Of a stretch of 29,472 bases of DNA, positions 6,102 through 29,253 are shown in pieces; position 1 is the first letter of the stretch, and the number at the start of each line of letters is the position of its first letter. Below the pieces are notes generated by a model that saw only the letters and a program-made list of their open reading frames with translations, was not told the origin of the DNA and ran no database searches. Made by a program: the position numbers and the translations under genes. Source of the DNA: Streptomyces roseochromogenus subsp. oscitans DS 12.976 (GTDB taxonomy: Bacteria > Actinomycetota > Actinomycetes > Streptomycetales > Streptomycetaceae); the NCBI RefSeq assembly GCF_000497445.1, contig NZ_CM002285.1, positions 3,668,512-3,697,983 of the forward strand. The letters run 5' to 3'.

Positions 6102-8411
6102 ATGACCATCGCTCCTTGGCGCGACCCCGCCCTGCCCGCCGACGCCCGCGTGGCCGATCTGCTCGCCCGGATGACCCTGGAGGAGAAGGCCGCCCAGCTG
6201 TACGGCGTGTGGGTGGGCGCCGCCACGGACGGCGACGCGGTCGCTCCGCTGCAGCGTGAGATGACCACCGGCCATGACTGGGACGAGCTGGTCTCACTCG
6301 GCCTCGGCCAGCTGACCCGCTCCTTCGGCACCGCTCCCGTGGACCCGGCCCTCGGTGCGCGGGCCCTGGCCCGCGCCCAGCGCCGGATCGCCGCGGCCGG
6401 CCGCTTCGGCATCCCGGCCATGGCCCACGAGGAGTGCCTGGCCGGCTTCACCGCCTGGCGCGCGACGGCGTACCCGGTGCCACTCGCCTGGGGCGCCGCC
6501 TTCGACCCGGCGCTGGTCGAGGAGATGGGCCGGCGCATCGGCCGCGACCTGCGCGCGGTCGGCGTCCACCAGGGCCTCGCGCCGGTCCTGGACGTGGTCC
6601 GCGACCCGCGCTGGGGGCGGGTCGAGGAGACGATCGGCGAGGACCCGTACCTGGTCGGCACCATCGGCACGGCGTACGTACGCGGTCTGGAGTCGGCCGG
6701 GGTCGTCGCCACGCTCAAGCACTTCGCCGGGTACGCGTCCTCGGCCGGCGCCCGGAACCTGGCCCCGGTCCGGGCGGGCGTACGGGAGTTCGCGGACATC
6801 ACCCTTCCCCCCTTCGAGATGGCGGTGCGCGAGGGCGGGGCCCGTTCGGTGATGGCGGCCTACACCGAGACCGACGGCGTACCCGCCGCCGCCGATCCGC
6901 TCCTGCTGACCGAACTGCTGCGCGAGGAGTGGGGTTTCACCGGCACGGTGGTCGCGGACTACTTCGGCATCGGCTTCCTGGAGACCCTGCACCGGGTCGC
7001 GGCCGACGAGGCGGAGGCGGCACATCTGGCGCTGGCCGCGGGCATCGACGTCGAACTGCCGACCCCGAAGTGCTACGGCACCCCGCTCGTCACGGCCGTA
7101 CGCCGGGGCCGGATCCCTCAGGCGCTGGTGGACCGGGCGGCCCGGCGCGTCCTGACGCAGAAGTGCGAGCTGGGCCTGCTGGACCCGGGCTGGCGGCCGG
7201 AGCCGGCGGGCCCGGCCGACCTGGACTCGCCGGAGAACCGCGCCCTGGCCCGGCGCCTGGCGGAGGAGTCGGTGATTCTGCTGGACAACCCGGACGGCCT
7301 TCTCCCCCTCGCCCCGGATGCCCGGATCGCGGTCGTGGGCCCGCGCGCGGCGGACCCGCTCGCCCTGCTCGGCTGCTACTCCTTCCCCGCCCACGTCCTC
7401 ACCCACCACCCCGAGGTCCCGCTCGGCATCGAGATCCCCACGCTGCTGGACGCACTGCGCGCCGAACTCCCGGACGCCAAGGTCACGTTCACTTCGGGGT
7501 GCGGAGTCCGCGACCCGGACACCGCCGGCTTCGCGGAGGCGGTGGCCCGGGCGGCGGAGGCCGACGTGTGCGTGGCGGTGCTCGGCGACCGGGCGGGCCT
7601 GTTCGGCCGGGGCACATCGGGCGAGGGCTGCGATGCGGCGGACCTCCAACTGCCCGGTGTACAGGCCGAGTTGCTGGACACGATCGTAGCGGTCGGCGTC
7701 CCGGTGATACTCGTGCTGCTGACCGGCCGGCCGTATGCGCTGGGCCGCTGGCACGGCCGGCTCGGCGCGGTCGTCCAGGCCTTCTTCCCCGGCGAGGAGG
7801 GCGGCCCGGCGGTGGCCGGGGTGCTGTCCGGACGGGTGAACCCCTCCGGACGCCTCCCGGTGAGCGTGCCGCGCGCGCCCGGCGGCCAGCCCTGGACGTA
7901 TCTCCAGCCCCTGCTGGGCCTGGCCGGAGAGGTCAGCAGCCTGGACCCGACCCCGCTGTACCCGTTCGGGCACGGCCGCTCGTACACGACGTTCGCCTGG
8001 GAGGACGTCCGCGGCCCCGGGCCCGAGATCCCGACGGACGGCTCCTGCGACCTCTCCCTGACCGTGCGCAACACCGGTGAGCGCGCGGGCGCCGAGGTCG
8101 TCCAGCTGTATCTGCACGACCCGGTGGCGAGCGTGACCCGGCCCGACGTACGGCTGATCGGGTACCAGCGCATCACGCTCTCCCCCGGCGAGTCCCGCCG
8201 GCTGACCTTCCGCTTCCACGCCGACCTGTCCGCCTTCACGGACCGTACGGGGGCCCGGCTGGTGGAGCCGGGCGCGCTGGAGCTGCGGCTGGCCGCGTCG
8301 AGCACGGACGTACGGCACACGGTCCGGCTCCGGCTGACCGGGCCGGTACGGGTGGTGGGCGCGGACCGGCGGCTGCGGTGCGCCGTGGAGGTGTCCCGGG
8401 GAACCGGTTGA
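6102..8411 (+). CDS. GH3 beta-xylosidase/beta-glucosidase
   Basis: 769-residue glycoside hydrolase family 3 enzyme without signal peptide, so probably cytoplasmic and acting on imported xylo-oligosaccharides. The first domain (about 15-345) has DPRWGRVEETIGEDPYLVG, KHFAGY (Lys206-His207) and the nucleophile Asp286 in GTVVADYFGI. The second alpha/beta domain (about 375-600) begins with AEESVILLDNPDGLLPL and ends with GRLPVSVPR. A fibronectin-III-like domain follows (about 655-755), with NTGERAGAEVVQLYLHDP. Its neighbours, a GH10 xylanase and a LacI-type repressor, favour beta-xylosidase over beta-glucosidase, but the sequence does not decide it. GGGAG lies 4 nt before the ATG. Most likely controlled by the divergent repressor. 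Confidence 0.92.
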   Translation: MTIAPWRDPALPADARVADLLARMTLEEKAAQLYGVWVGAATDGDAVAPLQREMTTGHDWDELVSLGLGQLTRSFGTAPVDPALGARALARAQRRIAAAGRFGIPAMAHEECLAGFTAWRATAYPVPLAWGAAFDPALVEEMGRRIGRDLRAVGVHQGLAPVLDVVRDPRWGRVEETIGEDPYLVGTIGTAYVRGLESAGVVATLKHFAGYASSAGARNLAPVRAGVREFADITLPPFEMAVREGGARSVMAAYTETDGVPAAADPLLLTELLREEWGFTGTVVADYFGIGFLETLHRVAADEAEAAHLALAAGIDVELPTPKCYGTPLVTAVRRGRIPQALVDRAARRVLTQKCELGLLDPGWRPEPAGPADLDSPENRALARRLAEESVILLDNPDGLLPLAPDARIAVVGPRAADPLALLGCYSFPAHVLTHHPEVPLGIEIPTLLDALRAELPDAKVTFTSGCGVRDPDTAGFAEAVARAAEADVCVAVLGDRAGLFGRGTSGEGCDAADLQLPGVQAELLDTIVAVGVPVILVLLTGRPYALGRWHGRLGAVVQAFFPGEEGGPAVAGVLSGRVNPSGRLPVSVPRAPGGQPWTYLQPLLGLAGEVSSLDPTPLYPFGHGRSYTTFAWEDVRGPGPEIPTDGSCDLSLTVRNTGERAGAEVVQLYLHDPVASVTRPDVRLIGYQRITLSPGESRRLTFRFHADLSAFTDRTGARLVEPGALELRLAASSTDVRHTVRLRLTGPVRVVGADRRLRCAVEVSRGTG

Positions 8412-8508
8412 ACGGCGGGGGCCGGGTGGAACGTATTGAGCCACGGCGGAAGCACAACCAGCCCCTTTCCGCAAGACCTCTGACACGGGCGTTCAGGATC
8501 GTTTCAGG

Positions 8509-8537
8509 TTGCCCCTGGCAGGGTCGGGCCGTAATTG
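8509..8537 (+). promoter_or_regulatory. promoter candidate of the DUF347 gene
   Basis: TTGCCC (8509-8514), 17-nt spacer, TAATTG (8532-8537). The expected transcription start is near 8544, leaving a leader of about 25 nt that contains the AGGAG ribosome-binding site. The rest of the gap from 8412 holds nothing I can identify. Confidence 0.45.
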
Positions 8538-8566
8538 ACCACCCCCCACACCCGGCAGGAGCCCCT

Positions 8567-9445
8567 TTGCCGACGACGAAGTCCGTCATGAAGAAGCTGC
8601 CCGAGGTCACCCTCGCGTTCTGGATCATGAAGATCGCGGCGACGACCCTGGGCGAGACCGCCGGCGACCTGTTCGCCCAGACCCTCAAACTCGGCTACTT
8701 CCTCACCACCGTCGCCCTGTTCCTGGTCTTCGTGGTGACGCTGGTGGTCCAGCTGCGTTCCTCGCGCTACAACCCGTTCTTCTACTGGACCGTGATCCTG
8801 TCGACCTCCATGGCCGGCACCACGATGTCCGACTTCATGAACCGCGACGCCAGCGCGAAGTTCCTCTCGAACGGCGCGACCCGGCTCGGCTGGGGCCCAC
8901 AGGGCCTCGGCCTCGGCTACCCGGAGGGCGCCGCGATCCTGATCTCGATCCTGCTGCTGATCTTCCTCGGCTGGAAGCTGAGCGGGATGACCTTCCAGAT
9001 CACCGAGATCGTCACCTTCCGGGGCGAGGCCCTGTTCTGGGCGGCGATCCTCGTCTCCAACACCCTCGGCACCTCGATGGGCGACTTCCTGTCCGACAGC
9101 TCGGGCCTCGGCTATCTGGGCGGTGCGTCCCTGGTGACCGGCGTCCTGCTGGTCCTGGTCGCCCTGATGAAGGTCCCGGTGGTGCCGAACGTCCTCCTGT
9201 TCTGGATCGCGTTCGTGCTGACCCGTCCGCTGGGCGCCACGGCCGGTGACTTCCTGACCAAGCCGGTCGCCAAGGGCGGTCTGAATCTGGGGACGCTCGG
9301 TTCCTCGGTGGTGCTGCTCGCGGTGCTGTTCGGTCTGATGGCGTACGCGCAGCTCAAGGAGCGGCGGGTGGCGACCGCTTCGGAGTTCGCGGGTCCCGGG
9401 GCGGAGGCCGAGGCGGTCCAGCCGCAGCGCGCCGGTCACCGGTAA
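8567..9445 (+). CDS. DUF347-repeat multi-pass membrane protein (COG4705)
   Basis: About 292 residues and roughly eight hydrophobic segments arranged as four internal repeats. Each repeat carries a small-residue/Asp signature: ETAGDLF, TTMSDFM, TSMGDFL and ATAGDFLTKP, spaced about 65-70 residues apart. These are the marks of the DUF347 family of membrane-anchored proteins. Function is unknown; the buried Asp in each repeat suggests transport or cation binding, but this is speculation. I chose TTG 8567 because AGGAG lies 5 nt before it; the internal ATG at 8588 (MKKLPEVTLAFW) is the alternative. The tail after the last helix is short and hydrophilic. It is monocistronic, with its own promoter candidate and a strong terminator immediately after the stop. 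Confidence 0.85.
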   Translation: MPTTKSVMKKLPEVTLAFWIMKIAATTLGETAGDLFAQTLKLGYFLTTVALFLVFVVTLVVQLRSSRYNPFFYWTVILSTSMAGTTMSDFMNRDASAKFLSNGATRLGWGPQGLGLGYPEGAAILISILLLIFLGWKLSGMTFQITEIVTFRGEALFWAAILVSNTLGTSMGDFLSDSSGLGYLGGASLVTGVLLVLVALMKVPVVPNVLLFWIAFVLTRPLGATAGDFLTKPVAKGGLNLGTLGSSVVLLAVLFGLMAYAQLKERRVATASEFAGPGAEAEAVQPQRAGHR

Positions 9446-9449
9446 CGGC

Positions 9450-9481
9450 GAAACCCGCCCCGGACAACCGGGGCGGGTTTC
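9450..9481. terminator. strong hairpin terminator, probably bidirectional
   Basis: A perfect 14-bp stem: GAAACCCGCCCCGG (9450-9463), loop ACAA, CCGGGGCGGGTTTC (9468-9481). It starts 5 nt after the stop of the DUF347 gene and ends 4 nt before the 3' end of the opposing tRNA-like gene, so it can end transcription from both sides. The symmetric A/T ends supply a short T run in each direction. Confidence 0.85.
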
Positions 9482-9484
9482 GAG

Positions 9485-9557
9485 TGGAGCGCCGGGCAGG
9501 CCTTGCACCTGCATCTCCCCGCAGGAAGCGGGACGTCTTTCCTTGGACCACCAACGC
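9485..9557 (-). tRNA. non-canonical tRNA-Gly(UCC)-like gene
   Basis: On the minus strand 73 nt fold as a complete cloverleaf. Acceptor stem GCGTTGG/CCGGCGC has 7 pairs (two T-G), with U73 and an encoded CCA. U8, G9; D arm GTC/GAC (3 pairs) with A14, A15, G18, G19, A21; G26. Anticodon stem TCCCG/CGGGG and 7-nt loop CTTCCTG give U33 and anticodon UCC. The variable loop AGAT allows an A15-U48 pair. T stem GCAGG/CCTGC has a 7-nt loop TGCAAGG with T54, C56, A58 and the G53-C61 pair. Glycine identity elements of bacteria (C35, C36, U73, first three acceptor pairs) are all present. Odd: G55 in place of the universal U55, G60, U37 in place of a purine, and C32/G38 able to pair and shrink the anticodon loop. 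It may be a non-decoding glycine donor, for example for peptidoglycan, or a pseudo-tRNA. Confidence 0.72.
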
Positions 9558-9611
9558 ACCGCGATCCGGCCGGTTTTCCGTTTCCGGGTTCCTGCCGTTC
9601 GCTGTGTGATG

Positions 9612-9641
9612 ATCATAGCGCAGTTCGGCCGGACACCTCAA
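9612..9641 (-). promoter_or_regulatory. promoter candidate of the tRNA-Gly-like gene
   Basis: On the minus strand TTGAGG (9641-9636), 18-nt spacer, TATGAT (9617-9612). Transcription would start near 9605 and give a leader of about 48 nt before the tRNA. The -35 box overlaps the stop codon of the small gene downstream of tsaD. An own promoter argues that the tRNA-like gene is expressed and not just a relic. Confidence 0.55.
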
Positions 9642-9901
9642 CTTCCGTCGCCGGCCACCGCCTCGAACCGCCAGCGGTGCACGGCCCGGGTCACCAACTC
9701 GCTGGTGGGTTCGGGCAGTTCGGGCAGTTCGGCGTCGTACGACGCGTCCCACCACGTGATGACCAGCACCCGGTCCTGCGGCGCCCGGAAGGTCTCGCGG
9801 CGCAGCGGCTCGGCGGCCAGCGGCTGTTCCCGCACCCAGGCGAGCAGCTCCTCGCCCCGGCCCGCGGCCGCCCGGGCCTCCCACATCAGCGCGACGGTCA
9901 C
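9638..9901 (-). CDS. small conserved protein, ABM-like fold, coupled to tsaD
   Basis: 87-residue protein of unknown function. The pattern [27 protein letters not shown]..., then [18 protein letters not shown], resembles dimeric alpha/beta barrel proteins of the antibiotic-biosynthesis-monooxygenase type, but the similarity is weak and no catalytic residues can be assigned. The GTG start overlaps the tsaD stop in the sequence GTGA, so translation is coupled and it is the last protein gene of the tsaB-rimI-tsaD operon. Codon use is the same as that of its neighbours. The stop codon lies inside the -35 box of the tRNA-like gene. Confidence 0.7.
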
Positions 9902-10986
9902 GAGTACAGGTTCTCCTTGCTGACCTCGTGCACATGGTCGTGGTTGCCGGGGACGTGCGGGTCGGTGACCGGCAGGGAGGAGTCGGCCGACAGGTCCCAG
10001 CTGGAGGCGGAGCGGCCCCGGGCGACCATCTCAGCGCCCAGCGCGGCGACCATCGCGCCGTTGTCCGTGCACAGCTTGGGGCGCGGGACGCGGAGTTCGA
10101 TGCCCGCCGCCTCGCAGCGGTGCCGGGCCAGCTCGCGCAGGCGCGAGTTCGCGGCCACACCGCCGCCGATCATCAGGTGCTCGACGCCCTCGTCCTTGCA
10201 GGCGCGGACGGCCTTGCGGGTCAGCACGTCGACGACGGCCTCCTGGAAGGACGCGGCCACATCGCGGACCGGGACCTCCTCGCCGGCCGCGCGCCTGGCC
10301 TCGATCCAGCGGGCCACGGCCGTCTTCAGACCGGAGAAGGAGAAGTCGTACGCCGGATCGCGGGGGCCGGTCAGGCCGCGCGGGAAGGCGATCGCCTCCG
10401 GGTCGCCCTCACGCGCGTACCGGTCGATGACCGGGCCGCCGGGGAAGCCCAGGTTCAGTACCCGGGCAATCTTGTCGAAGGCCTCGCCGGCCGCGTCGTC
10501 GATGGTCGCGCCCAACGGCCGGACGTCGGAGGTGATGTCCTCCGACAGCAGCAGGGAGGAGTGGCCGCCGGACACCAGCAGGGCCATGGTCGGCTCGGGC
10601 AGCGGGCCGTGCTCCAGCTGGTCGACGCAGATGTGCGAGGCGAGGTGGTTGACGCCGTAGAGGGGCTTGCCGAGGGCGTAGGCGTACGCTTTGGCCGCCG
10701 AGACACCGACGAGGAGGGCGCCCGCGAGGCCGGGACCCGCGGTCACGGCGATGCCGTCGAGGTCTTTCGCCGAGACGCCCGCCTCCTTCAGCGCGCGGTC
10801 GATGGTGGGGACCATCGCCTCCAGGTGGGCGCGGGAGGCCACCTCCGGGACGACGCCGCCGAAGCGGGCGTGCTCGTCGACGCTGGAGGCGACGGCGTCC
10901 GCCAGCAGGGTGGTGCCACGGACGACGCCGACACCGGTCTCGTCGCAGGAGGTCTCGATGCCGAGGACGAGAGGTTCGTCAGCCAT
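9898..10986 (-). CDS. tsaD: tRNA N6-adenosine threonylcarbamoyltransferase TsaD
   Basis: Catalytic subunit that transfers the threonylcarbamoyl group from TC-AMP to A37 of ANN-decoding tRNAs, giving t6A; it acts with TsaB and TsaE. 362 residues of the ASKHA fold. Seen motifs: [13 protein letters not shown] at the N-terminus, the metal-binding His114 and His118 in [47 protein letters not shown], and [12 protein letters not shown] near the end with [10 protein letters not shown]. The length is normal plus a ~20-residue polar tail. The ATG overlaps the end of rimI by 8 nt (ATGGCTGA), so it is translationally coupled in the order tsaB-rimI-tsaD. Confident assignment. Confidence 0.96.
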
Positions 10987-20123: not shown

Positions 20124-21971
20124 CTACTCGACCGTCACCGACTTCGCCAGGTTGCGGGGCTGGTCCACGTCGTTGCCGCGGGCGGTGGCCAGCTCGCAGG
20201 CGAAGACCTGCAGCGGGACGGTCGCCACCAGCGGCTGCAGCAGGGTCGGGGTGGCCGGGATGCGGATCAGGTGGTCGGCGTAGGGGGCGACCGCCTCGTC
20301 GCCCTCCTCCGCGATCACGATGGTGCGCGCCCCGCGGGCCCTGATCTCCTGGATGTTGGAGACGATCTTGTCGTGCAGGACCGAGCGGCCGCGCGGGGAC
20401 GGTACGACGATCACCACCGGCACGTCCTCCTCGATCAGCGCGATCGGGCCGTGCTTCAGCTCGCCCGCCGCGAAGCCCTCGGCGTGCATATAGGCGAGTT
20501 CCTTGAGCTTCAGGGCGCCTTCGAGGGCGACCGGGTAGCCCACGTGCCGGCCGAGGAACAGCACCGTGTTCTTCAAGGCCAGGGTCCGCGCGAGAGCCCG
20601 TACCGGCTCCATCGTCTCCAGGACCCGATCGACCTCCTCCGAGATCCGGGAGAGGTCCTTGATGACGGCCTGGATCTCGTCGCCCCACTTGGTGCCGCGC
20701 ACCTGACCCAGGTACAAGGCCACCAGATAGCAGGCCACCAGCTGGGTCAGGAACGCCTTGGTGGAAGCCACGGCGACCTCCGGGCCCGCGTGGGTGTACA
20801 GCACCGCGTCCGACTCGCGCGGGATCGTCGAGCCGTTGGTGTTGCAGATGGCCAGCACCTTGGAGCCCTGCTCACGGGCGTGCCGCAGCGCCATCAGGGT
20901 GTCCATGGTCTCGCCGGACTGGGAGATGGCGATCACCAGGGAGCGGCCGTCCAGGATCGGGTCCCGGTAGCGGAACTCGCTGGCCAGCTCCACCTCGCAC
21001 GGGATGCGCGTCCAGTGCTCGATGGCGTACTTGGCGATCAGGCCGGCGTGGAAGGCCGTACCGCAGGCGACGATGACGACCTTGTCGATCTCGCGCAGCT
21101 CGGACGGGGAGATGCGGACCTCGTCCAGGGTGAGCGAGCCGGACGGGTCGATCCGGCCCAGCAGTGTGTCGGCTACCGCCTTGGGCTGCTCGGCGATCTC
21201 CTTGAGCATGAAGTAGTCGTAGCCGCCCTTCTCGGCGGCGGAGGCGTCCCAGTCCACGTGGTAGCTGTGCACCTCGGCCGGGCGGCCGTCGAAGCCGGTC
21301 ACCGTGACGCCGTCCCTGCGCAGCTCCACGACCTGGTCCTGGCCCAGTTCGATCGCCGAGCGGGTGTGGGCGATGAACGCGGCGACGTCGGACGCCAGGA
21401 ACGCCTCGCCCTCGCCGACACCGACCACGAGCGGCGAGTTGCGGCGCGCACCCACGACCACATCCGGTTCGTCGGCGTGCACCGCGACCAGCGTGAACGC
21501 GCCCTCCAGCCGCCGGCACACCAGCCGCATGGCCTCCGCCAGGTCGGCGGTGGCCGAGAACTCCTCGCCGAGCAGATGGGCGACGACCTCGGTGTCGGTC
21601 TCGGAGGTCAACTCATGGCCCCGCTCGGCCAGTTCGGTCCGCAGCACCGCGAAGTTCTCGATGATGCCGTTGTGGACGACGGCAACCCGGCCCGCGTTGT
21701 CGAGATGCGGGTGGGCGTTGCCGTCGGTGGGGCCGCCGTGCGTGGCCCAGCGCGTGTGGCCGATGCCGGTCGCGCCCGTCGGCAGCGGCCGTTCGACCAG
21801 TTCCTTCTCCAGGTTGACGAGTTTCCCGGCCTTCTTGGCCGAGGCCAGTCCGCCGTCGGCGAGGACGGCGACGCCCGCCGAGTCATATCCCCGGTACTCC
21901 AGCCGCTTCAGCCCTGCCATCACGACATCGAGCGCCGACTGCGACCCTACGTATCCCACGATTCCGCACAT
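20124..21971 (-). CDS. glmS: glutamine-fructose-6-phosphate aminotransferase (isomerizing)
   Basis: Makes glucosamine-6-phosphate from fructose-6-phosphate and glutamine, the first step to UDP-GlcNAc. 615 residues. The N-terminal glutaminase domain begins MCGIVGYVG with the nucleophile Cys2, then RLEYRGYDSAG, GHTRWATHG and VVHNGIIENF. Two SIS domains follow: the first with IVACGTAFHAGLIAKY and ISQSGETMDT, the second with LFLGRHVGYPVALEGALKLKE and AEGFAAGELKHGPIALIEE. The C-terminus NLAKSVTVE is standard. The ATG at 21971 has no ribosome-binding site but TAGGCT 7 nt before it. No glmS ribozyme is seen, as expected outside Firmicutes. It works with glmM, encoded 2 kb away. Confidence 0.96.
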   Translation of the reverse strand: MCGIVGYVGSQSALDVVMAGLKRLEYRGYDSAGVAVLADGGLASAKKAGKLVNLEKELVERPLPTGATGIGHTRWATHGGPTDGNAHPHLDNAGRVAVVHNGIIENFAVLRTELAERGHELTSETDTEVVAHLLGEEFSATADLAEAMRLVCRRLEGAFTLVAVHADEPDVVVGARRNSPLVVGVGEGEAFLASDVAAFIAHTRSAIELGQDQVVELRRDGVTVTGFDGRPAEVHSYHVDWDASAAEKGGYDYFMLKEIAEQPKAVADTLLGRIDPSGSLTLDEVRISPSELREIDKVVIVACGTAFHAGLIAKYAIEHWTRIPCEVELASEFRYRDPILDGRSLVIAISQSGETMDTLMALRHAREQGSKVLAICNTNGSTIPRESDAVLYTHAGPEVAVASTKAFLTQLVACYLVALYLGQVRGTKWGDEIQAVIKDLSRISEEVDRVLETMEPVRALARTLALKNTVLFLGRHVGYPVALEGALKLKELAYMHAEGFAAGELKHGPIALIEEDVPVVIVVPSPRGRSVLHDKIVSNIQEIRARGARTIVIAEEGDEAVAPYADHLIRIPATPTLLQPLVATVPLQVFACELATARGNDVDQPRNLAKSVTVE

Positions 21972-21978
21972 GAGCCGC

Positions 21979-21984
21979 AGCCTA
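21979..21984 (-). promoter_or_regulatory. -10 box of a leaderless glmS transcript
   Basis: TAGGCT on the minus strand, 7 nt before the ATG of glmS. A weak GTTTTC hexamer lies 17 nt further upstream as a possible -35. No ribosome-binding site is present between them and the start. Confidence 0.5.
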
Positions 21985-22009
21985 CGACCCGCTCGGCGCC
22001 AGAAAACGC

Positions 22010-22277
22010 TTCCGCCTGCCCGGATTCGGAAATTCCCACAGCCATACGAACGGCGAACACGGCCGTACGGTCGCCGAAGGTGCAGTGCTCCGCGGCCCCG
22101 TCCGCCGCCGGCCGAGGGCCGCCCCGATCCACGTACCGGCCGGGACACCGAGCGCAGAACACGGTGAGCGCCGCGAGCAGCGCCGTCCGCGATCGACCGG
22201 AGCACACCGACGATCACTAAGCCGTCGGTCTGTACGGCGAAGGCGGCGACCGTCAGCGCGTAGAGCTGAAGGGACAC
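22010..22277 (-). pseudogene. decayed N-terminal fragment of an MFS-type transporter
   Basis: From GTG 22277 the minus strand reads VSLQLYALTVAAFAVQTDGL and then VIVGVLRSIAD, the first membrane helix and loop typical of drug-efflux MFS proteins (usually ...DxxVVxGxLPxIAxDL). After that the reading becomes Arg/Gly-rich. In a second frame LLAALTVFCARCPG may be a further piece. The rest of a ~400-residue transporter is absent before glmS. It faces the TetR-like gene, the usual layout of a regulator and its efflux pump. The call rests on a short stretch and is tentative. Confidence 0.35.
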
Positions 22278-22338
22278 CGGAAGGAGGAGAACGACGACGA
22301 GGAAGAGGAGGAGAGGATGGCGGTCACCCCACCCGCCC

Positions 22339-22860
22339 ATGCCGAGGCCCGCCGGCCCCGAACGCCGCCGCGAGGCGACCGACGCCGTGATCGAGCAGCT
22401 CGCCCGCACCGGCATCGGCTCCTTCCCGCTGCGCACGCCGGCCGAGGGGCTGGGGCGGAGCGCTGGACGAGCGGCAGCACGCGGCGCCGCGCGCCACCAC
22501 CGGCCGGCCGACCGCGCGGTCCCGGTCAGCGAGGTCGTCCGCTCCGCCTGGCACCGCGACCTCAGCCCCGGCGAACTCGACATGACCCGGCTCATCCGGG
22601 AGACCGAGGGCCTCGCGGCGGCCGGCCGGCTCACCCTCCCGCACCCCGGCCTCGTGCGCGGCCGCGCCGAGTCCGTCGCCCCCCGCCTGGTCCACCGCGG
22701 CCTGTCCGGCGCAGCCGCCCTGACCTGCGCCACCCTCCTCAACACCGCCTTCTCCAGCCTCCAGGCCGACCTGCTGATCACCGGCGGCCACGAGCGCGGC
22801 GAAGCGGCATCGGACGCCCTGTGCGCCTGGGTCGACGCCCAGGTGACCGCAGCCGCGTGA
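22339..22860 (+). pseudogene. TetR-family regulator, probably decayed
   Basis: The open frame gives 173 residues. The start MPRPAGPERRREATDAVIEQ, followed by LARTGIGSFPLRTPAEGLGRS, fits the first two helices of a TetR HTH. The end SPGELDMTRLIRETEGLAAA... TLLNTAFSSLQADLLITGG... LCAWVDAQ fits a TetR ligand domain. The middle (about 44-70) is Arg/Ala/His-rich and the recognition helix is missing; in another frame this stretch reads ALDERQHAAPRATTG, like the start of the TetR ligand domain. This suggests a deletion followed by a second, compensating frameshift. Third-position GC is high in this frame at both ends. No ribosome-binding site precedes the ATG. It is divergent from the MFS fragment. 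A functional protein of another kind cannot be fully excluded. Confidence 0.5.
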
Positions 22861-22875
22861 CGGACCCCACCCACC

Positions 22876-22893
22876 ACGGAGTTCAAACTCCGT
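22876..22893. promoter_or_regulatory. 18-bp inverted repeat upstream of coaA
   Basis: ACGGAGTT, spacer CA, AACTCCGT: perfect 8-bp arms, 15 nt after the TetR-like stop and 12 nt before the coaA GTG. It has the size of a TetR-type operator and could also be a transcript-end hairpin. An AT-rich stretch (TTAACAAT) follows directly and may be the -10 of coaA. Confidence 0.6.
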
Positions 22894-29136: not shown

Positions 29137-29253
29137 TGTTCTTCTCCTGTGTGTCTGCCCCGGCCGTGTCAGGTACCGGGGTCAGTATCCGAGCAGACGG
29201 TTGTCTGTCGGAGATCCGGGGTCCGCTGACGCGAACCCCGGAGGCTGTGGAGA

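Follow-up and report, generated by a model that had tools for sequence, protein, structure and literature searches.

Why a Streptomyces chromosome should carry a glycine tRNA gene that departs from the canonical ones at many positions is the question raised by the stretch of DNA analysed here (29,472 nucleotides of Streptomyces roseochromogenus subsp. oscitans DS 12.976, referred to below as the window). Canonical tRNA-Gly genes with UCC, CCC and GCC anticodons are present elsewhere in the genome, and the window gene is therefore not needed for reading glycine codons. An earlier note on the window had proposed that the gene makes a glycine donor that is charged but escapes translation, possibly dedicated to cell-wall synthesis. 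A literature search limited to open-access papers returned no report of the gene, and the available excerpts of PMC8269248, PMC3937824 and PMC4307249 hold no mention of it.

The window tRNA gene and its flanks

ARAGORN called a tRNA-Gly(tcc) at 9485-9557 on the minus strand, the sole tRNA gene within the window. Rfam model RF00005, when applied to 9557-9488, was covered in full at 37.3 bits (gathering threshold, 29), a score that ranks 68th of the 69 Rfam tRNA matches in the genome; a fast Rfam scan of the whole window did not have the gene among its matches. The features of the locus are as follows.

8378..9445, plus strand: gene for a DUF347 protein (PF03988), convergent to the tRNA
9449..9482, minus strand: perfect G+C-rich terminator-like hairpin, directly 3′ of the tRNA
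9485..9557, minus strand: non-canonical tRNA-Gly(UCC) gene with encoded CCA (ARAGORN; Rfam RF00005)
9558..9605, minus strand: foldable 5′ leader, between the likely (inferred) transcription start and the tRNA
9612..9641, minus strand: promoter-like site TTGAGG-18-TATGAT from a motif scan, ending 54 bases before the tRNA
9638..9901, minus strand: 87-residue open reading frame upstream of the tRNA, on the same strand, with no Pfam match
9898..10986, minus strand: tsaD (TIGR03723, 422.9 bits)

The gene has a cloverleaf and the glycine identity elements G1-C72, C2-G71, U73, C35 and C36, and the oddities listed in the earlier note were all confirmed. The T-loop is TGCAAGG, with G at positions 55 and 60. 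The non-proteinogenic tRNA-Gly species of staphylococci carry a GUGC T-loop. The anticodon loop, CTTCCTG, has seven bases, a U at position 37 and a C32 and G38 that can pair; the D stem is reduced to three pairs, with C13 and A22 unpaired, and the acceptor stem contains two U-G pairs (U4-G69 and U5-G68). The window gene thus lacks both the purine 37 and the TTC T-loop by which an elongator tRNA is recognized, and among the 52 distinct tRNAs that ARAGORN called in the genome it alone has a pyrimidine at position 37, a T-loop other than TTC, or G60. Its folding energy is not exceptional (z −1.06, with 29 of 200 shuffles equally good), and chance was therefore excluded instead by comparison of copies from other places, to which we refer as family 1.

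The sequences flanking these copies differ from each other while the tRNA body is conserved, yet signals of the same kind recur on both sides. The promoter scan found one site in the window, with 0.0 (sd 0.2) expected in shuffles. In 200 aligned upstream regions the −10 region recurs together with the bases that follow it, and the −35 region is hardly visible; the common sequence is TG.GCTA...T, then GATCTTGAGC. The alignment required the A and T of the −10 element, while the TG and the G at −5, −4 and −2 were left free, and bases downstream of the −10 element contributed to the alignment score. The 38-nucleotide leader of 201 copies had a mean folding energy of −15.3 kcal/mol, compared with −10.2 kcal/mol in mononucleotide shuffles, and was below the shuffle mean in 96.5% of them. 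For the 55 nucleotides after the tRNA the corresponding values were −35.0 and −18.9 kcal/mol, and all 201 copies were lower; a scan for T-runs listed no terminator at the 9449..9482 hairpin. With the tsaD spot left out, 63 places remain; the nearest gene upstream has the orientation of the tRNA in 49 of them, and the nearest one downstream has the opposite orientation in 44. Judged by sequence, promoter-like site, leader, tRNA and hairpin together make the window gene an autonomous unit. A tRNA pseudogene was considered and rejected on the grounds that the stems are intact in 200 of 202 copies and that the promoter-like and hairpin signals recur.

Features kept and lost among 202 copies

The 202 copies of family 1 include 115 that came from a pattern fixing parts of the D and T loops; counts for the other 87, which did not, are given alongside. 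The body has the length of the window body in 180 copies, of which 133 are at least 95% identical to it (lowest value, 89%). The acceptor stem is fully paired in 200 copies, all five pairs of the anticodon stem form in 200 copies while its sequence changes, and 201 copies retain G18 and G19; the arms of two copies could not be parsed. The earlier note had looked to an alignment across Streptomyces for a conserved cloverleaf with compensatory changes. The conserved body and paired stem changes were indeed observed: among 25 distinct bodies 97.8% of the stem cells are paired, and in 14 cells both partners have changed, compared with 3.7 in shuffles. The covariation is, however, only modest, because three pairs show such double changes and 31 of 500 shuffles reach that number. 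The encoded CCA of the window gene, also pointed out in the earlier note, proved not to be general, being present in 80 of the 202 copies.

The determinants of glycine identity (G1-C72, C2-G71, G3-C70, U73 and the CC of the anticodon; PMC9976931) are almost invariant. The three acceptor pairs are found in 201 of the 202 copies, and U73 and the CC in all of them; outside the pattern, the identity pairs and the CC are present in 87 of 87. The CC persists even where the rest of the anticodon does not. Six-base anticodon loops occur in 20 copies (10 of the 87 outside the pattern), and in one group of these, with the loops CAACCG, CAGCCG and CATCCG, base 34 varies while the CC is constant. It seems, as far as the base counts go, that the anticodon arm of family 1 is kept mainly for its synthetase. 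One identity feature goes the other way: the GlyRS of Thermus uses U16 as well (PMC9976931), and U16 is missing from the short D loop of family 1.

A second set of positions has been altered. G51-C63 and G49-U65 are strong EF-Tu pairs (PMC4052509), and each of the three canonical tRNA-Gly isoacceptors of the genome has both. In family 1, A51-U63 stands in place of G51-C63 in 199 of 202 copies (86 of 87 outside the pattern), and the window gene has G49-C65 in place of G49-U65. One could envision that the gene is simply a weak extra decoder of GGA and GGG, since all 180 copies with seven-base loops have the UCC anticodon and U33. We consider this quite improbable. A pyrimidine occupies position 37 in 179 of those 180 loops (77 of 77 outside the pattern), as opposed to one of the 52 tRNAs of the genome; pairing of C32 with G38 can shrink the loop to five bases; the EF-Tu pairs are lost; and a body one base shorter was found in 12 of the 93 copies of the genus-wide scan described below, in 8 of the 54 carrying genomes, where all 10 of the 12 that were fetched and read have six-base loops. 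Loops of six bases, or with a pyrimidine at 37, are expected to spoil decoding.

With synthetase identity kept and both EF-Tu binding and decoding apparently weakened, the simplest use for such an RNA is as a charged donor outside the ribosome. The housekeeping GlyRS would charge the family-1 tRNA, EF-Tu would bind the Gly-tRNA poorly, and the glycine would pass to a non-ribosomal user, which would be FemX, the ligase of peptidoglycan, or else the FemX-like enzymes that serve secondary metabolism. That the product of the window gene is a glycine tRNA charged yet withheld from translation for such a user is a reading on which we are evenly divided, and to this extent the proposal of the earlier note that the tRNA escapes translation is upheld, as an interpretation of the bases kept and lost. 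The greater similarity of the gene to other odd tRNA-Gly genes (64-73% identity) than to canonical ones (54-56%) argues for it. Against it are the UCC and U33 of the 180 seven-base loops, with which weak reading of GGA is possible; the retention of G18 and G19, unlike the staphylococcal tRNAs; the missing U16; the modest covariation; and, as detailed below, a lack of any shared neighbour beyond syntenic spots and of any link to FemAB number.

An alternative is that the RNA has the shape of a tRNA but works without being charged, or serves as a decoy or regulator, for example by binding GlyRS, a tRNA-modifying toxin or mRNAs. Decoding has been lost in some genomes, as such a role would allow; the bases that identify Gly-tRNA to the TacT toxin, G71 and U73 (PMC9976931), are retained; and the tRNAOther of Bacillus cereus provides a precedent (PMC3399842). 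A decoy would not need such strict keeping of the identity bases and the loop CC, however, and pairing between the D loop and the anticodon loop, which we tried as a candidate interaction, was rejected when its complementarity proved to be broken in the six-base variants. We think that this alternative is unlikely.

Distribution of the gene and a universal relative

BLAST and a covariance model of family 1 (R1) agreed on which 54 of the 101 Streptomyces genomes hold the family, with 93 copies at 64 bits or more, the window copy included. One of the 93 (G070:C253, 64.6 bits) is of an intermediate kind. More than one copy is present in 20 genomes, with up to six in one, and both chromosome ends are among the locations. 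The R1 scan matched 62 genomes in all, and the eight beyond the 54 hold only weaker, different tRNAs. Thirteen of the 14 matches between 41 and 52 bits were read and comprised a tRNA called family 3 (described below), a third odd kind (G012, G023) and a degraded family-1 copy (G022); most matches of 41-46 bits are family 3. In a class-wide sample of 197 genomes from 76 genera, R1 matched 23, of which 16 were Streptomyces; the seven others scored 49 bits or less, and the five that were read (G110 and G140 being left out) are ordinary tRNAs. Among 200 Streptomycetaceae genomes, 43 matched, 38 of Streptomyces and five of two other genera, and two of these five are intermediates. A pattern scan of named genomes gave at least 120 stretches and listed at least 80 genomes, those listed being all Streptomyces except one Actinacidiphila. 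Family 1 also occurs on 70 plasmid records (68 of Streptomyces and 2 of Streptantibioticus) at 136 places, eight of them on one Streptomyces clavuligerus plasmid. It had no match in 50,697 phage records and, by exact pattern, was absent from IMG/VR viral contigs. Family 1 is accessory, being scattered and multi-copy. On a Streptomyces mangrovisoli contig (L218), some 3.3 kb hold three copies, which are separated by predicted genes.

The neighbourhoods of the copies are mostly unrelated between places. When the 54 nearest upstream and 52 nearest downstream genes were compared with Pfam, no family matched more than three of them, and an all-against-all blastp of 417 open reading frames near copies returned recurrent genes mostly at one syntenic spot, that of tsaD; other recurrent frames were found at four loci at most, at scattered distances. 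The tsaD spot is the main recurrent location of the tRNA (8 of 101 Streptomyces genomes), and the end of the 87-residue frame precedes the tRNA there in other genomes too; DNA of the DUF347 gene sits elsewhere in several genomes. In the six other genomes compared at this spot, identity is 83-90% at the end of the flanking gene and 97-100% over the tRNA, a difference that points to purifying selection on the tRNA. A clean empty site at tsaD was sought and rejected, as the DNA downstream is diverged or different in relatives that lack the gene. The earlier note had also drawn on cell-wall genes nearby: alr, glmS and glmM do lie in the window, but their association with the tRNA is weakened by its presence at this spot in just 8 of 101 genomes. 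The glmS frame (20124-22877, minus strand) encodes 917 residues, the first 302 of which precede the GlmS model; the start is probably further in, or else the protein has an N-terminal extension. An L17 ribosomal protein leader (RF03132, 69.5 bits) was also observed at 29155-29211 on the minus strand.

The multiplicity of copies in unrelated places and on plasmids, with copies in one genome resembling each other (e.g. G036, G055 and G061), could suggest a tRNA-derived selfish element or a relic carried on plasmids and chromosome arms. The degraded copy (L356, G022:C53), in which the 5′ part has been replaced by unrelated sequence, would fit such an origin and indicates that family-1 copies do die. 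The conserved body, intact stems and recurring promoter-like and hairpin signals, together with the lack of a shared flank and of a target duplication at tsaD, the one spot compared, make us regard this explanation as very unlikely.

A second non-canonical tRNA-Gly(UCC), family 3, lies in the same genome (G000:C1:4925469-4925397, minus strand), where ARAGORN made no call; annotations may thus hide such genes. It has the acceptor strand GCGGGTG, A18, an ordinary seven-base anticodon loop and the T arm GCAGTGTGCAATYCCTGT, which contains an extra base and GTGC. A covariance model of family 3 (R2) matched 101 of 101 Streptomyces genomes at 94-107 bits, with two or three copies in some genomes; all further matches were at 71 bits or below. 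In all 25 copies read, which were found by a pattern fixing part of the T arm, family 3 lies 40-192 bases before tRNA-Gly(GCC) and has no encoded CCA. Loci L012, L063 and L377 are among those that carry it. In the Streptomycetaceae sample it occurs in 132 of 200 genomes (64 of them Streptomyces) and 15 of 17 genera; the 20 listed of the 68 genomes without it comprise 3 of genus g86, 16 of g89 and 1 of g91. Our guess is that g86 and g89 are Kitasatospora and Streptacidiphilus, hydrolysates of which contain both diaminopimelate isomers (PMC6113628). Among the matches listed for 296 genomes of the phylum, the best outside Streptomyces scored 74.7 bits; 11 of the 18 such loci listed are tRNA-Gly genes, all with ordinary TTC loops.

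The window gene is 64-65% identical to family 3, 70-73% to intermediates (G357, G070) and 54-56% to canonical tRNA-Gly, and these identity values suggest that it descended through odd tRNA-Gly forms. The intermediates (L334 in G357, L339 in G070:C253 and L333 in G335) have loops CTTCCGG or CTTCCTG and a TGC T-loop in two cases, TTC in one. The third odd tRNA-Gly (L341 in G012:C101; L342 and L365 in G023) carries a C at position 33, where U is almost universal; its anticodon loops read CCTCCGG and CCCCCAG, and its T-loop is the usual TTC.

Possible glycine users and known systems

Known users of Gly-tRNA in Streptomyces include FemX and VanK (PMC4052509) and the FemX-like enzymes DhpK and Orf11 (PMC12945691). 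FemX is the user invoked if family 1 is a dedicated donor for the glycine of the Streptomyces peptidoglycan bridge. The A51-U63 change in the T stem is that of the staphylococcal tRNA-Gly proposed to serve the bridge (PMC4052509), FemAB-family proteins (the family of FemX) are encoded in every one of the 101 genomes, and family 1 shows a nominal excess in genomes with at least three of them (13 of 16; Fisher p 0.027). Nevertheless, family 1 is present in only 54 of those 101 genomes, and FemAB number is not associated with it across them (Mann-Whitney p 0.30). Larger genomes carry family 1 more often (p 2e-5), and when genome size is included in a logistic model, the coefficient for FemAB falls slightly below zero (−0.23, without a p value). 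A universal alternative, family 3, also exists. We therefore hold a dedication of the window gene to the bridge, the part of the earlier proposal that fared worst, to be rather unlikely. Copy numbers of FemAB and GlyRS were likewise rejected as pointers to a partner, with no FemAB association and a single N-terminal GlyRS match per genome in all 101; a fourth GlyRS piece was observed in G007, G043, G056 and G089.

Family 3, universal among the Streptomyces genomes sampled, is the better cell-wall candidate and likely the housekeeping glycine donor. The preferred reading, a charged glycine donor outside translation, would then place family 1 beside it as an accessory booster that is gained, multiplied and lost. 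A broader interpretation is that Streptomycetaceae possess a translation-excluded tRNA-Gly system of two layers. One would be the gene found almost universally next to tRNA-Gly(GCC), the other a booster family, scattered and multi-copy, which in some lineages would have given up decoding while keeping the features read by GlyRS; between them they would supply the chemistry of the wall and of antibiotics with a Gly-tRNA pool of its own. We advance this tentatively, as somewhat short of an even chance. The two families bear on the supply of glycine for peptidoglycan and for FemX-like antibiotic enzymes, and the presence in Streptomyces of one odd tRNA-Gly that is universal and another that varies in copy number leaves the question open to plain deletions.

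Several known systems invite comparison. Units of the tRNA arrays on giant linear plasmids of actinomycetes, to which an anti-defence role is ascribed putatively (PMC12803027), also place tRNA genes on linear plasmids. Family 1 differs from the arrays in comprising a single kind of tRNA, which stands by itself in the window, and in having no match in the phage records, and a phage or plasmid tRNA array was rejected on the basis of the lone gene and the absence of phage or IMG/VR matches. The tRNAOther of B. cereus is a tRNA-like RNA that stands outside translation and is linked to the cell envelope (PMC3399842), and the putative role of family 1 outside translation resembles it; tRNAOther is part of larger RNAs, whereas family 1 consists of many copies of a short, self-contained unit. 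Closer at hand, family 3 shares with the window gene A51-U63, the glycine identity elements, the GCAG, GTGCAA and CCTG of the T arm and 64% identity overall, and differs in its core locus beside tRNA-Gly(GCC), A18, extra T-arm base and ordinary anticodon loop.

The non-proteinogenic tRNA-Gly isoacceptors of Staphylococcus aureus have A51-U63 for G51-C63 and a replaced G49-U65 (PMC4052509, citing Giannouli et al. 2009). Like them, the window gene coexists with canonical isoacceptors and has both strong EF-Tu pairs replaced, here by G49-C65 and A51-U63. Unlike them, family 1 has anticodon loops that are shortened or can be closed, it is scattered, multi-copy and accessory and occurs also on plasmids, and it keeps G18 and G19, which in the staphylococcal tRNAs are changed to UU or CU. 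On account of this retained GG, we liken family 1 to the staphylococcal tRNA-Gly in its manner of working and do not count it as a member of that group.
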